From NCBI RefSeq assembly GCF_001421015.2, contig NZ_CP013023.1:5190001-5254000 (forward strand): 64,000 nucleotides of DNA. Direction: 5' to 3'. The position numbers and the translations under genes are program-made. The notes beneath the pieces are model-generated. The model was not told the DNA's origin and did no database searches. It saw only the letters and a program-made list of their open reading frames with translations. Below, in pieces: positions 25,768 to 31,264 of the stretch (positions within the stretch are counted from its first letter, which is position 1; each line of letters starts with the position of its first letter). This stretch comes from Paenibacillus bovis. Lineage in GTDB: Bacteria > Bacillota > Bacilli > Paenibacillales > Paenibacillaceae.

Positions 25768-26664
25768 TTATGCAGTAGGGTGATCAATCTCATTTATTAC
25801 TTTACGCAGATACTCAATAGTGCTTTCCCGCAGCTCCGGATGTTTGAGCGCATAGTGGATCGTCGTCTCGATAAAGCCGCTCTTCTCGCCTACGTCGTGG
25901 CGCAATCCGTCGAACTGATACGCCAGAATATCCTGCTGATCGCCGAGCTTGGAAATCGCATCGGTCAGCTGGATCTCACCGCCTGCTCCGGCATCCTGGT
26001 TGCCCAGAATATCAAAAATCTCGGGAGTAAGAATATACCGACCCATGATCGCCAGATTAGATGGCGCATCTTCACGTTTTGGTTTCTCCACGAGACCGGT
26101 GGCTTTGTACAGACGGCCGGATTCATCGCCAGGCATCTGATCTCCTGCTACCAGACCGTAGCGGGATACATGTTCCCAGGGTACTTCTTTGACCCCTACC
26201 ACAGAAGACTCATGCTGCTCGTATACATCCATCATTTGCTTGAGACAAGGAACATCGGATTCTACAATATCATCCCCGAGCAGTACGGCAAACGGTTCGT
26301 TGCCGATAAACTTGCGGGCACACCAGATGGCATGTCCCAGTCCTTTGGGTTCTTTCTGACGAATGTAATGGATATCTGCCATCTCGGAGGATTCGCGAAC
26401 CGCATCCAGCAGCTTCCATTTTTCTTTTTCTTCCAGATTCTGCTCGAGTTCAATCGAGTAATCGAAATGATCTTCAATGGCCCGTTTGCCTTTACCGGTA
26501 ACGATAATGATGTCCTCAATACCGGAAGCAACCGCTTCTTCGATAATGTACTGGATCGTCGGTTTGTCTACGATCGGCAGCATTTCTTTGGGCATGGCTT
26601 TGGTAGCTGGCAGAAAACGGGTTCCGAGTCCTGCAGCTGGAATAATCGCTTTGCGTATTTTCAT
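25768..26664 (-). CDS. galU: UTP-glucose-1-phosphate uridylyltransferase, copy 1
   Basis: Makes UDP-glucose for surface glycans and glycolipids. 298 aa. Motifs: [20 protein letters not shown] at 11-30, [28 protein letters not shown] and GGEIQLTD. The ATG at 26664 has AAAGGAG 8 nt upstream; the open frame starts 7 codons earlier. Copy 2 lies directly upstream at 26941-27828; the proteins differ at only about 13 of ~295 positions plus the C-terminal end (DHPTA here). This one is called galU (gtaB in Bacillus). Confidence 0.95.
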
Positions 26665-26857
26665 TACTGGATCTCCTTTAGCCATTTAGGCAGCGATACT
26701 TTGAGACTACACTATACTATATTCATACGGGAATTTATACCTGAGAGGCAGGTAACTCCGATTATCCTTACTGAAGACAGGTGATTGGTATGATTTAAAG
26801 AATAATTCATACGAACCAGCAAGTCCCCTGTGCAAATCATAAGCGAATCTTTGGTAT

Positions 26858-26902
26858 CAAAAAAAGATACACCGTTCTCTATCTATAACAGAAAACGGTG
26901 TA
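26858..26902 (-). terminator. Intrinsic terminator of galU copy 2
   Basis: A perfect 9-bp stem, TACACCGTT (26868-26876) / AACGGTGTA (26894-26902), is followed on the minus strand by a seven-T run. It separates the two galU genes, so copy 1 probably has its own promoter in 26665-26857. Confidence 0.82.
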
Positions 26903-26940
26903 CCTTTTATATATTTTTACTTCCTATTTGGCAAGGTGAT

Positions 26941-27828
26941 TTATTTATCGATCTCTGCCATAACTTTACGCAGATAGTCTACGGTAGAATCACGCAGCTC
27001 CGGATGCTTCAGTGCATAGTGGATCGTCGTCTCGATAAAGCCGCTTTTCTCCCCTACGTCATGACGCAGTCCTTCGAACTGGTAAGCCAGAATATCCTGC
27101 TGCTGACCCAGTTTGGAAATCGCATCGGTCAGCTGGATCTCGCCACCTGCTCCGGCATCCTGGTTGCCCAGAATATCAAAAATTTCCGGTGTCAGGATAT
27201 ACCGACCCATAATCGCCAGATTGGATGGCGCATCTTCACGTTTTGGTTTCTCCACAAGACCAGTCGCTTTATACAGACGACCAGAGTCATCACCAGGCAT
27301 CTGATCACCCGCAACAAGACCATAGCGGGATACATGTTCCCAAGGCACTTCTTTGACCCCTACCACAGAGGACTCATGCTTCTCGTATACATCCATCATC
27401 TGCTTCAGACAAGGAGTATCCGACTCTACAATATCATCCCCGAGCAGTACGGCAAATGGCTCGTCACCGATAAACTTGCGGGCACACCAGATCGCGTGGC
27501 CCAGTCCTTTGGGTTCTTTCTGGCGGATATAGTGAATGTCAGCCATCTCGGACGGTTCACGAACCGCATCCAGCAGCTTCCACTTTTCTTTCTCCTCCAG
27601 ATTCTGTTCCAGTTCAAAGGAATAGTCAAAGTGATCTTCAATCGCGCGTTTGCCTTTACCGGTAACAATAATGATATCCTCGATACCGGAAGCAACCGCT
27701 TCTTCGATAATGTACTGGATCGTCGGTTTGTCTACGATCGGCAGCATTTCTTTGGGCATGGCTTTGGTAGCTGGCAGGAAACGGGTTCCGAGTCCTGCAG
27801 CTGGAATAATCGCTTTGCGTATTTTCAT
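26941..27828 (-). CDS. galU: UTP-glucose-1-phosphate uridylyltransferase, copy 2
   Basis: 295 aa, with the same catalytic motifs as copy 1 ([29 protein letters not shown]). The ATG at 27828 follows GGAGG with 8 nt spacing; 144 bp from the ATG inward differ from copy 1 at a single base, while the next 50 bp differ at about five, a sign of local gene conversion. The two copies have separate terminators and different upstream DNA, so their expression may differ. Different C termini: DK here versus DHPTA. Confidence 0.95.
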
Positions 27829-28432
27829 TATTTCTTCCTCCATCTCGAATGTATTGGATATAGTCTACAGCAGAATCTGCTTCCGCTGTAGAATCCTAAG
27901 TAGTGTACAGCCGCTTAACCGCCTGCACGCTGATGGGTTGGTGGCAGTGCTATGTAAGCCGGCAACTCGTCAATCTCACTCTGATATCTTACCCAATTCC
28001 ACAGGATTTTACCCAGCAGATTCTTTTCTACAGATGGAAGCAGTTACATATGTGGATAACCTGTGAAAAAGACACATTTGTGCTTATCCATATCGTTTGA
28101 TCGATAATTTACGGATTCAGTCATTCGCAGCTTTATGATGAAACGATAGGTTATTCTCCTCTATTCCCGGCTTTTACTATTATATTTGCTGCTATGTTCA
28201 CTATTGTTTTGATTAATTTGTGGATAGGCTGAGGATAATATTTTTATTTCATCAGATAATATAGCATCAAAAAGAAGAAATCCGTAGCTATATTGGGGAT
28301 AAATCAAAAAGAGGATGCCATAAATGACACCCTCCTGTAGATAATGTGGATGATTTGCGGATAACTTCTCCGCAGATATACATTTGCTGTATATCATTTT
28401 GGTCTATCCACATATTTATCCAGTTCATCTGT
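27829..28432. other. Gene-free AT-rich stretch containing a DnaA-box cluster
   Basis: No gene, RNA or terminator I can support lies in these ~600 bp. The right two thirds (28051-28424) carry at least eight 9-mers within one mismatch of the DnaA box TTATCCACA, listed in the separate entry. The promoters of galU copy 2 (reading left) and possibly of other transcripts must lie in the left part. Confidence 0.7.
28051..28424. promoter_or_regulatory. Cluster of DnaA-box-like sites
   Basis: Sites (as read on plus): TGTGGATAA 28051 (exact box on minus), TTATCCATA 28084, TGTGGATAG 28219, TGAGGATAA 28230, TGGGGATAA 28294, TGTGGATGA 28345, TGCGGATAA 28356, CTATCCACA 28404, and weaker TTATCCAGT 28416. 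By base counting, a 9-mer within one mismatch on either strand is expected about once per 4.7 kb in random sequence, so eight in 374 bp is a large excess. Most read in the minus orientation. DnaA clusters outside oriC exist in Bacillus subtilis and E. coli (datA). No dnaA or dnaN gene is in the window, so this is not evidently the main origin. Confidence 0.75.
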
Positions 28433-30943
28433 TTATTTTACCAGTTGACCGCGTGTAACGCCCAGCTGGTTGGTTGCTTTGAGACTGCGCCATACCTGAG
28501 TACCGCTAATCTCGCCGCGCAGCGCTTTGCTGTACAGTTCGATAACTTCCAGAACCTGCTCTGGCGTCTCTTCCAGGAACTCTACACGGTATCTAGGCAC
28601 ACCCAACTCCAGGAAATCCTTCAGGTATTCTGCTCCGGACTGCTCGATTGCATTGTATACCGTATTACGGCAACCTTCATCGACACGTACCGGATGAGAC
28701 ATACCGATCCGATCCTGCAGGGAAACCCGGCTGTCTTCACATGGACGTCCACAATTGGTGAAGTCGGTACCTTCACTCAGGAACGTACAATATACACAGT
28801 GCTCGGTATGGAACATCGGCAGATGCTGGTGGATAACCACTTCCATCCGGGAAGTCTGACTACGTCCCAGCAGATCGACCATTTGCTGGATATTCAGATC
28901 ATAGGATGGAGTGACCATATCTACGCCGGAGTCCAGGAATAGGCTTACCGCTTTGTGGTTCGCAATGTTCAGCGAGAAATCACCGATCAGCTGTGGATGG
29001 TTCTCCTGCGGATGACTCTGGCGACGTGCCAGATAGTAGTACAATGCACCCGTATTACGTACCAATACCGCATCCGGCTGCAGACGCAGAATATTGGCAT
29101 GATAGCCATTTTCACCAGGCATATGAATACGCGGCGTTGCCAGCGCAATCTTTTTGCCGGCTGCGCGTACAGCGGCTACAGCTGCCGGGAACTGCTTGAT
29201 AAACTCAAAGTCCGCATAGATCATCTCTACATCGGTCTTCACAACAGCTTCCACTTGCTCCAATGTACGGCACAGTGCTGTCAGCATCGCTTCGGTACCT
29301 TGGACCGGAGCTGTAGCCGGAGCAATATCCTCGTAAGTCGCAATATCACGCTTGATATAGACTGGCGGTTTTGGACGTTCGCCTTCCAGCTGTTCTACCG
29401 CCTGGCGGCGAATCGCATTCAGTTCACGCATCGGGATGATAATATCGCCATGCAGCTGTACTTCCAGTTCATCCAGTTGGAAAATGGTACCGCCCAGGCG
29501 ACCAAACTGTTCTTCCAGCAGTTCGGCAGTCATCGGACGCTTGGCTGCGATTTCCAGTTCCATCTCGGAATCTACGCGGATCGTTACACCTTTTTGCACA
29601 TCGGTCCAGTAAGTGACCAGTGGCTGACCGGCATGACCGATCGCTTTGACATGTACCGGGAATACGCGGTACGGCTTGTCGGTCTCATACGTCTGTCTCA
29701 TGCGTTTATCCAGCGCAGGATCGTTGGTTTTCCAGATCTTGTCCCCAACGTGTACCTTTTTGAGGTTTACATCGCTGCGACCTGGTACGATATCCACAAT
29801 CCAGCTTTCTCCCGCTTCGCCTTCGAGCTTAACGCCCTGACGACGCAGATCATAGATCCGTCCGCCTTCTTCTTTTTGCGTTGGGTCGCCGGCATCGAAT
29901 ACGATACCGTCGCCGCGCTTCACCGGAGCTTCCAGACGGCAGACAACGCCGTCACGCAGGATTTTCTCGACGCGACCGAGGTATACGCCGCGGCTTTTCG
30001 GGAAAGTACCATCTACCAGCTTTTTGTTGTTGGTTCCATCGAGGAAGCCATGGGTAAATCCGCGGGAAAAGCTCTGTTCCAGCTCACGAATATCTTCGCG
30101 GCTGATCGGTGTGCTGTCCCCTTCAAAGTAACGATCAATCGCTTTGCGATATTTGCTGACCACGTTCGCTACATACGTCGGGCTTTTCAGACGACCTTCG
30201 ATTTTGAAGGATGTTACGCCTGCTTCGATCAGCTCCGGCATGATATCGATCGCTGCCAGATCTTTTGGTGACAGCAGATAAGTTACGTCGCCCATGATCT
30301 TCTGCTCGCCATCTACGATCAGATCATACGGCAAACGGCAAGCCTGCGCACATTCCCCGCGGTTGGCAGAGCGTCCGCCCCACATTTCCGAGGTCAGGCA
30401 TTGTCCGGAGTACGATACACATAATGCGCCGTGTACGAATACTTCCATCGGCAGACGAGCCTGTTCGCCGATTTTCTGGATCTGCTTGAGGTTGTTCTCG
30501 CGGCCCAGTACGACACGTTCCATATTGAACGGCTTGGTGAATTCCACCGCTTCCGGTGAAGTGATCGTCATCTGGGTCGAACCATGAATCGGGAAGTCCG
30601 GCGAGATCTCACGGATCATTTTGACCAGACCCAGATCCTGTACGATAACCGCATCCACACCTGCATCCACGCAGGCATCGATCAGTTCCTTGGCATCTTC
30701 CAGTTCGTTCTCGAAAACAAGTATATTAAACGTCAAAAAGCCTTTGACTCCATAGCTATGCAAAAACGCCATGATCTCCGGCAATTCATCCATACGGAAA
30801 TTATTCGCCCGCGCACGCGCGTTAAATTTCTCCACGCCAAAAAAGACTGCGTCTGCTCCATTAGCTACCGCCGCCCGCATGCAGTCCCAGTCGCCTGCCG
30901 GCGCCAGAAGCTCCACGTCTTCTCTTCGTAATGCTGTAGTCAT
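28433..30943 (-). CDS. U32-family protein, long form (RlhA/YhbU-like)
   Basis: 836 aa. N-terminal U32 domain: ELLAPAGDWDCMRAAVANGADAVFFG at the start, HGSTQM, VFVHGALCVSYSGQC and GECAQACRLPY, with the Cys set that binds an iron-sulfur cluster in this family. A second unit follows with a DUF3656-like middle and a late Cys group (HCVYC...NCGRPC). Related proteins (RlhA, TrhP) act in hydroxylation of 23S rRNA or tRNA bases rather than as peptidases; which of these applies is not clear. The ATG at 30943 has GGGAGG ~12 nt upstream; the open frame starts 30 codons earlier without family homology. Confidence 0.85.
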   Translation of the reverse strand: MTTALRREDVELLAPAGDWDCMRAAVANGADAVFFGVEKFNARARANNFRMDELPEIMAFLHSYGVKGFLTFNILVFENELEDAKELIDACVDAGVDAVIVQDLGLVKMIREISPDFPIHGSTQMTITSPEAVEFTKPFNMERVVLGRENNLKQIQKIGEQARLPMEVFVHGALCVSYSGQCLTSEMWGGRSANRGECAQACRLPYDLIVDGEQKIMGDVTYLLSPKDLAAIDIMPELIEAGVTSFKIEGRLKSPTYVANVVSKYRKAIDRYFEGDSTPISREDIRELEQSFSRGFTHGFLDGTNNKKLVDGTFPKSRGVYLGRVEKILRDGVVCRLEAPVKRGDGIVFDAGDPTQKEEGGRIYDLRRQGVKLEGEAGESWIVDIVPGRSDVNLKKVHVGDKIWKTNDPALDKRMRQTYETDKPYRVFPVHVKAIGHAGQPLVTYWTDVQKGVTIRVDSEMELEIAAKRPMTAELLEEQFGRLGGTIFQLDELEVQLHGDIIIPMRELNAIRRQAVEQLEGERPKPPVYIKRDIATYEDIAPATAPVQGTEAMLTALCRTLEQVEAVVKTDVEMIYADFEFIKQFPAAVAAVRAAGKKIALATPRIHMPGENGYHANILRLQPDAVLVRNTGALYYYLARRQSHPQENHPQLIGDFSLNIANHKAVSLFLDSGVDMVTPSYDLNIQQMVDLLGRSQTSRMEVVIHQHLPMFHTEHCVYCTFLSEGTDFTNCGRPCEDSRVSLQDRIGMSHPVRVDEGCRNTVYNAIEQSGAEYLKDFLELGVPRYRVEFLEETPEQVLEVIELYSKALRGEISGTQVWRSLKATNQLGVTRGQLVK

Positions 30944-31264
30944 GTAGATTGTTATCCTCCCGGATTGCCTGATGCCCAGGCAATACTCTATTCGCGGATG
31001 AAAGTTCATCCTGATGGTTATGGTATTCGACATACGCCGGTGCTGAATCCGCTTTATGGACCGCTGGGTTCTTGCACCTCAATTTAAAATGATTCTAATT
31101 CAGTGTAACAGACATGGAGCGGGGTATCTACAGTATCGTTTAAATTTGTATGAAAATTAATGAAATATTGTGGAGTTTGCAAATGCGGAGCAATAATCGA
31201 CTTATTGAGTTGTAAAGATGGGGATACAAATGACGGTGTGGTGTTTTGTGCTTCATTCACTCCA

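Follow-up and report, generated by a model that had tools for sequence, protein, structure and literature searches.

A conserved cluster of candidate DnaA boxes between a peptidase U32 gene and galU in Paenibacillus bovis

The 589-bp spacer between a peptidase U32 family gene and a galU-like gene of Paenibacillus bovis holds nine 9-mers within one mismatch of TTATCCACA, at positions 28051-28412 of the window, the 64,000-nucleotide stretch of DNA analyzed here (C1:5190001-5254000; C1, with 5,354,277 bp, is one of two contigs in a genome of 5,517,199 bases). We lean toward reading these sites as a DnaA-box cluster like those of B. subtilis, lying outside oriC and titrating DnaA. Its most likely role would be that of a reservoir keeping DnaA off oriC, because the sites have been kept while the DNA between them drifted. 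The main rival to this reading is control of galU.

Candidate boxes in the spacer and their excess over chance

A first-pass annotation, made from the letters alone, had described at least eight near-consensus 9-mers, one of them exact, within 374 bp, mostly in one orientation, in an AT-rich stretch with no coding gene to account for them and no dnaA nearby. This description was borne out. The exact TTATCCACA occupies 28051-28059 on the minus strand, a scan with TTATNCACA allowing one mismatch adds a tenth site at 28062 (TTTTTCACA), and eight of the ten lie on the minus strand, those at 28084 and 28404 being on the plus strand. The intergenic DNA (27844-28432) has a G+C content of 38%, against 46.7% in the genome sample. 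Two plus-strand open reading frames (27650-28066 and 28346-28942) overlap the spacer, but both are mechanical, running antisense to galU and U32. The sole match to DnaA domain IV in the genome is at C1:662287.

Shuffling the 374 bp 2000 times with dinucleotide composition preserved gave a mean of 0.16 sites and a maximum of three, and nine were never reached. Similar density in other DNA of this genome, which the annotation had named as a test, was not encountered in a background sample of 56 roughly evenly spaced 20-kb stretches (1.12 Mb, about one fifth of the genome), where the densest 400-bp window held three sites with TTATCCACA or five with TTATNCACA. Together, the shuffles and the genome background rule out chance in AT-rich DNA as the source of the boxes. 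Like the B. subtilis clusters called DBCs, the spacer packs several boxes into little intergenic DNA, many more than chance would give. The remaining four fifths of the genome was covered by the exact-box and tandem scans alone. Four extra stretches, chosen for their listed exact or tandem boxes and kept out of the background sample, included three with clusters: oriC (17 boxes on the promoter side of dnaA and 6 around the dnaA-dnaN junction), DNA beside tadA (5) and a spacer flanked by MarR and GDPD genes (11). Within what was scanned, comparable clusters are present but few.

Both neighboring genes are on the minus strand, with the U32 gene (28433-31033; PF01136, PF12392) upstream of the cluster and a nucleotidyl transferase gene, named galU by inference (26941-27843; PF00483), downstream. 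The boxes nearest galU form a minus-strand tandem pair (pair 1, 28051-28070), in which TTTTTCACA (28062-28070) and the exact consensus are separated by 2 bp; both P. dauci and P. wulumuqiensis have it unchanged. Pair 2 (28219-28238, minus strand) places TTATCCTCA (28230-28238) and CTATCCACA (28219-28227) across a 2-bp gap, and is identical in P. dauci and absent from P. wulumuqiensis. A single minus-strand box, TTATCCCCA (28294-28302), and a minus-strand triple array (28336-28364) lie closer to U32, the latter consisting of TTATCCGCA (28356), a 2-bp gap, TCATCCACA (28345) and, with no gap, TTATCTACA (28336). All four of these boxes match P. dauci at 9/9 positions, and the first two of the triple are kept in P. 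wulumuqiensis. A second copy of CTATCCACA (28404-28412, plus strand), reversed relative to the others, is likewise 9/9 in P. dauci. Next to the triple there is a possible weak box, TTCTCCGCA (28366-28374, plus strand), with two mismatches, inverted relative to the box at 28356 and 8/9 in P. dauci. By contrast with the kept sites, TTATCCATA (28084-28092, plus strand) agrees with P. dauci at 4/9 positions and is probably a chance match. The set of sites that the annotation had placed at 28051-28424 stands, on its excess and its conservation, with the qualifications that this one listed member is not conserved and that a few other clusters occur in the genome.

Within the cluster, 3' of the U32 gene, lies a hairpin resembling an intrinsic terminator (28309-28336, minus strand), with a 12-pair stem and a T run and a predicted fold of -17.5 kcal/mol (z -5.4). 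Toward galU, a block at 27880-28019 (minus strand) is 97% identical to P. dauci (136/140), largely kept in P. wulumuqiensis and absent from the other 13 genomes of the genus sample; it is possibly the galU promoter or leader. A simple promoter scan of 27844-28432 found no promoter, which is weak evidence, and an Rfam scan returned no family at cut-off, the one listed match being caiA at 23.2 vs 55.5 bits. We also considered whether the 140-bp block might be a small gene. On inspection by eye it contains a frame of some 30 codons, near-unchanged in P. dauci and with few changes in P. wulumuqiensis, mostly amino-acid-changing, and coding is unsupported rather than excluded. Two adjoining galU-like genes of high similarity occupy 25768-27843, an apparent tandem duplication.

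Conservation of the boxes and range of the cluster

Against P. dauci, 85 of the 90 box bases in 28040-28432 are identical, compared with 190 of 303 other positions (Fisher p 2.7e-10), and when the boxes were shifted circularly along the alignment, only 2 of 393 shifts matched or beat the observed conservation. Nine of the ten boxes are unchanged in that species, the exception being 28084; the U32 gene is identical at 2437 of 2600 positions. The triple and pair 1 are 53 bp apart in P. wulumuqiensis, against 294 bp in P. bovis (241 bp shorter). Four sites, pair 1 and two boxes of the triple, are nevertheless kept there, with a hairpin between them in the place that corresponds to the U32 terminator of P. 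bovis, and one further box word is present. The MAFFT alignment of the three species misplaces the P. wulumuqiensis triple, which was therefore compared on the raw sequence. The boxes look selected, the sites having been kept while the intervening DNA drifted. Selection on the boxes is a property that we add to the published definition of a DBC, and on this comparison the U32-galU cluster has it.

Matching DNA was detected in three of 16 genus genomes (E up to 0.001, P. bovis included), the other two being P. dauci (G003) and P. wulumuqiensis (G015). These three share the adjacency of U32 and galU (within 1.5 kb) with one further genome, G006, which has the same gene order and zero boxes within 1.5 kb past U32. 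In the other 12 there is no galU within 1.5 kb of U32 and no cluster, only 0 to 3 scattered boxes per 1.5 kb. A wider look at U32 loci gave the same picture: among the best 80 of 529, more than two boxes (TTATCCACA, one mismatch, 700 bp past the match) were found only in P. dauci (8) and P. wulumuqiensis (4). Retention between galU and U32 in relatives, which the annotation had put forward as a check, was therefore seen in two species, with boxes kept over spacers, but is confined to one clade. Since it is present in 3 of 16 genomes, the cluster is not required by the genus.

A tree of four proteins, rooted at its midpoint, groups the three cluster-bearing genomes together at support 100/99, G006 being their nearest neighbor. 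The simplest account is a single gain in the ancestor of the three species. Alternatively, G006 may have lost or replaced its spacer, an account that keeps some standing because the next branch (G008, G009) is without the gene pair. A decayed cluster in the G006 spacer was considered and rejected, the only similarities being 18 bp next to galU and another match of 10 bp (E 0.48). The cluster-bearing clade and this relative of equal gene order form a natural pair with and without the cluster.

The same comparisons bear on the main rival reading, that DnaA sitting upstream of galU turns that gene up or down, and with it the supply of UDP-glucose, according to the state of replication, or that it limits read-through from U32. 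Every box lies upstream of galU, and some 210 bp separate pair 1 from the listed start of that gene. Pair 1, unchanged in all three species, adjoins the conserved 140-bp block, and the cluster occurs in three of the four genomes with U32-galU adjacency and in none of the 12 lacking it. Excerpts of PMC4447404 indicate that several B. subtilis clusters appear to be sites where DnaA represses or activates genes. The sites span 360 bp across the terminator, however, and the promoter scan, for what little it weighs, was empty; G006 has the same gene order yet no boxes, and the neighboring second galU-like gene has none upstream. Because the boxes flank the U32 terminator on both sides, they do not form one compact promoter site, and promoter control would not be the whole story. 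Pair 1 and the 27880-28019 block are the best-kept parts of the spacer, and for this reason we regard control of galU as a possibility to be taken seriously, if one that is on present evidence improbable.

Arrangement of the boxes and position relative to oriC

Among the nine conserved boxes eight have the same orientation, as do the essential boxes of E. coli datA (PMC5742627, as excerpted), and the cluster contains three tandem pairs with 2-bp gaps. A whole-genome scan for such tandems gave 14 matches at up to three mismatches, three of them at U32-galU, against two for a reversed control pattern; at up to two mismatches there were five matches, again with three at U32-galU. The eight conserved minus-strand boxes fall within 0.14 turn of one another at 10.5 bp (R 0.94; 0.95 in P. 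dauci). In a post hoc test, random displacement of the four units reached that phasing in 74 of 20000 trials at a fixed 10.5 bp and in 1240 of 20000 when the period could vary between 10 and 11 bp. Because of the latter figure, the phasing hints at a common helical face for these boxes but does not prove it. For the four P. wulumuqiensis boxes R is 0.98 at 10.5 bp and 0.97 at 10.75 bp, nearly equal values that therefore carry little information on the period.

For the MarR-GDPD cluster, R at 10.5 bp, taken as a descriptive value, is 0.75 in P. bovis, 0.80 in G006, 0.75 in G008, 0.79 in G009, 0.65 in P. dauci and 0.68 in P. wulumuqiensis, the last rising to 0.88 at 11.0 bp. The oriC boxes give 0.40 and 0.68 on the two strands of oriC-L and 0.71 in oriC-R, and the tadA cluster 0.59. 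Since these values overlap, phasing does not cleanly divide clusters from oriC.

A known parallel in layout is provided by the low-affinity arrays of E. coli oriC (R5M-t2-I1-I2 and C3-C2-I3-C1), in which, as described in the available portions of PMC4451416, the gaps are exactly 2 bp and the boxes all point the same way on a single helical face. The U32-galU cluster resembles these arrays in gap, direction and apparent helical face, but it is no origin and has no long trio run. Its phased 2-bp tandems amount to a concrete prediction for cooperative DnaA loading outside an origin.

The 11-bp start-to-start distance of the tandem pairs also invites a quite different reading, in which the repeats would serve another regulator that uses 11-bp direct repeats, such as a PhoP-type response regulator. 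galU is an envelope-related gene, which would suit a regulator of this type. PhoP half-sites, however, would not need the TTAT half of the DnaA 9-mer, whereas the sites in the spacer follow the full 9-mer, TTAT half included. Four of the ten site words (TTATCCACA, CTATCCACA, TTATCCCCA and TTATCTACA) also recur in the oriC clusters around dnaA. We consider such a regulator very unlikely.

Provided that C1 is circular, the cluster sits on the left arm at a distance of about 0.80 Mb from oriC. The corresponding distance in P. dauci, where a single contig (C2) carries both, is about 0.77 Mb. dnaA is at about 661-663 kb of C1, and the GC skew switches sign at 0.57-0.72 Mb and again at 3.32-3.40 Mb, being negative on both sides of the window; dnaA, its flanking boxes and the skew switch are thus all elsewhere, and the cluster is outside oriC. 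Dense DnaA boxes in AT-rich DNA might also be expected of a second or cryptic replication origin. The origin, however, sits at dnaA with its two sets of boxes, and the skew switch is not beside the window. In oriC-R, on the dnaA-dnaN side, a run of six TAN trios begins 13 nt past a box, vs a longest run of three, 36 nt past a box, in the U32-galU cluster. On the skew and trio evidence we reject a cryptic origin as scarcely credible. The dnaA frame of P. bovis is broken between domain I and the AAA+ part, and its counterparts in P. dauci and P. wulumuqiensis run uninterrupted for 452 codons; because dnaA is essential, the break is probably a sequencing error.

Titration of DnaA and other clusters in the genus

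An extra-oriC cluster that titrates or regulates DnaA, or a galU/U32 target of DnaA, had been the annotation's proposal, and the density and conservation of the boxes lend it support. We suggest the following sequence of events for titration. DnaA would bind the near-consensus boxes, a stronger box helping to fill a weaker one 2 bp away on the same face and in the same direction, and an oligomer could extend along about 310 bp. DnaA would thereby be held away from oriC, and the doubling of the sites as the fork passes, some 0.8 Mb out, might damp early or repeated initiation.

This proposal draws on the DBCs of B. subtilis (gcp/ydiF, ywcI/vpr, ywlC, sda/yqeG, yydA and trmE), which, as far as the consulted parts of PMC4447404 and PMC5295017 describe them, are likewise intergenic, outside oriC, furnished with 4-11 boxes and several to a chromosome. 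Table 1 of PMC4447404 lists six extra-oriC regions with 4-11 sites among the eight strongest DnaA regions, and the nine to ten sites of the U32-galU cluster are within this size. The P. bovis cluster differs in its flanking genes, in its restriction to one small clade and in that its DnaA binding is predicted only; its own layout is one-way and apparently phased, with 2-bp tandems. Removal of the six DBCs leads to early initiation, although in the same accounts the effect is strong only with all six gone and no single cluster has so far been assigned a significant role (PMC5295017, PMC13220808, in excerpt). Tenfold overproduction of DnaA caused no over-initiation in B. subtilis according to the excerpted text of PMC13220808, which counts against strong titration, as does, for the present cluster, the fact that only one box is exact. 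How extra rounds of replication are restrained in such bacteria is an open question, and the weight of DnaA-box clusters in it is disputed.

A more active role would be that of an element like datA or DARS, altering the nucleotide state of DnaA beyond merely holding it. The E. coli datA locus, more than 450 kb from oriC (PMC4451416, PMC5742627, as excerpted), and the U32-galU cluster are alike in being non-coding, with one-way DnaA boxes on one arm, the latter at most 0.8 Mb from oriC; the likeness is one of layout, not of sequence homology. datA, on the other hand, requires IHF, and B. subtilis is said to lack IHF, Hda and SeqA as well as datA/DARS loci (PMC13220808, in the parts available). 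We therefore think a datA- or DARS-like activity unlikely.

Titration, our preferred reading, can be set beside the other clusters of the genus, which were compared as the best 400 bp of each fetched stretch (TTATNCACA, one mismatch) in the 16 genomes. Directly upstream of tadA, about 90 kb from oriC in P. bovis (C1:751713-752025), lies a cluster with 3-7 boxes, 2-4 of them exact, in all 16 genomes; motB is on its opposite side (8 of 16 genomes inspected). The MarR-GDPD cluster (C1:1256043-1256387) has 11 boxes, all one way, and its counterparts hold 9-13 boxes in six of the 16 genomes, which form one clade, against 0-2 in the other ten. It shares with the U32-galU cluster the one-way layout, a similar footprint and boxes better conserved than the spacers, and differs in its wider range, its place on the other arm about 0.6 Mb from oriC and its neighbors. 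More tentatively still than for galU control, these clusters could be cast as a nested series (the tadA cluster genus-wide, MarR-GDPD confined to one clade, ctsR in others) whose members come and go, with the quantity of DnaA-holding DNA and its approximate place on the chromosome being kept. The U32-galU cluster would then be a recent DnaA oligomer platform of one-way, phased strong and weak pairs, gained once between genes already adjacent, selective for ATP-DnaA and datA-like without IHF; we hold this to be doubtful. Among the titles and abstract openings of open-licence articles in PMC, we found no report of Paenibacillus DnaA-box clusters of such a kind.

Upstream of ctsR, at 1.3-1.7 kb, seven of the 16 genomes have 4-7 boxes, none exact, in stretches of which several end at contig ends. 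Because ctsR is about 46-53 kb from U32 in P. bovis, G002 and G008, a cluster may occupy this chromosomal neighborhood in some relatives, at a different gene. Against this, ctsR and U32 are distant on the single contig of G011 and on different contigs in the remaining genomes, and four or five boxes were also reached in the background sample. Elsewhere in P. bovis, a tandem pair at C1:258632-258651 is flanked by DUF72 and PAS/hemerythrin genes, and P. dauci and P. wulumuqiensis have 4-5 boxes there.
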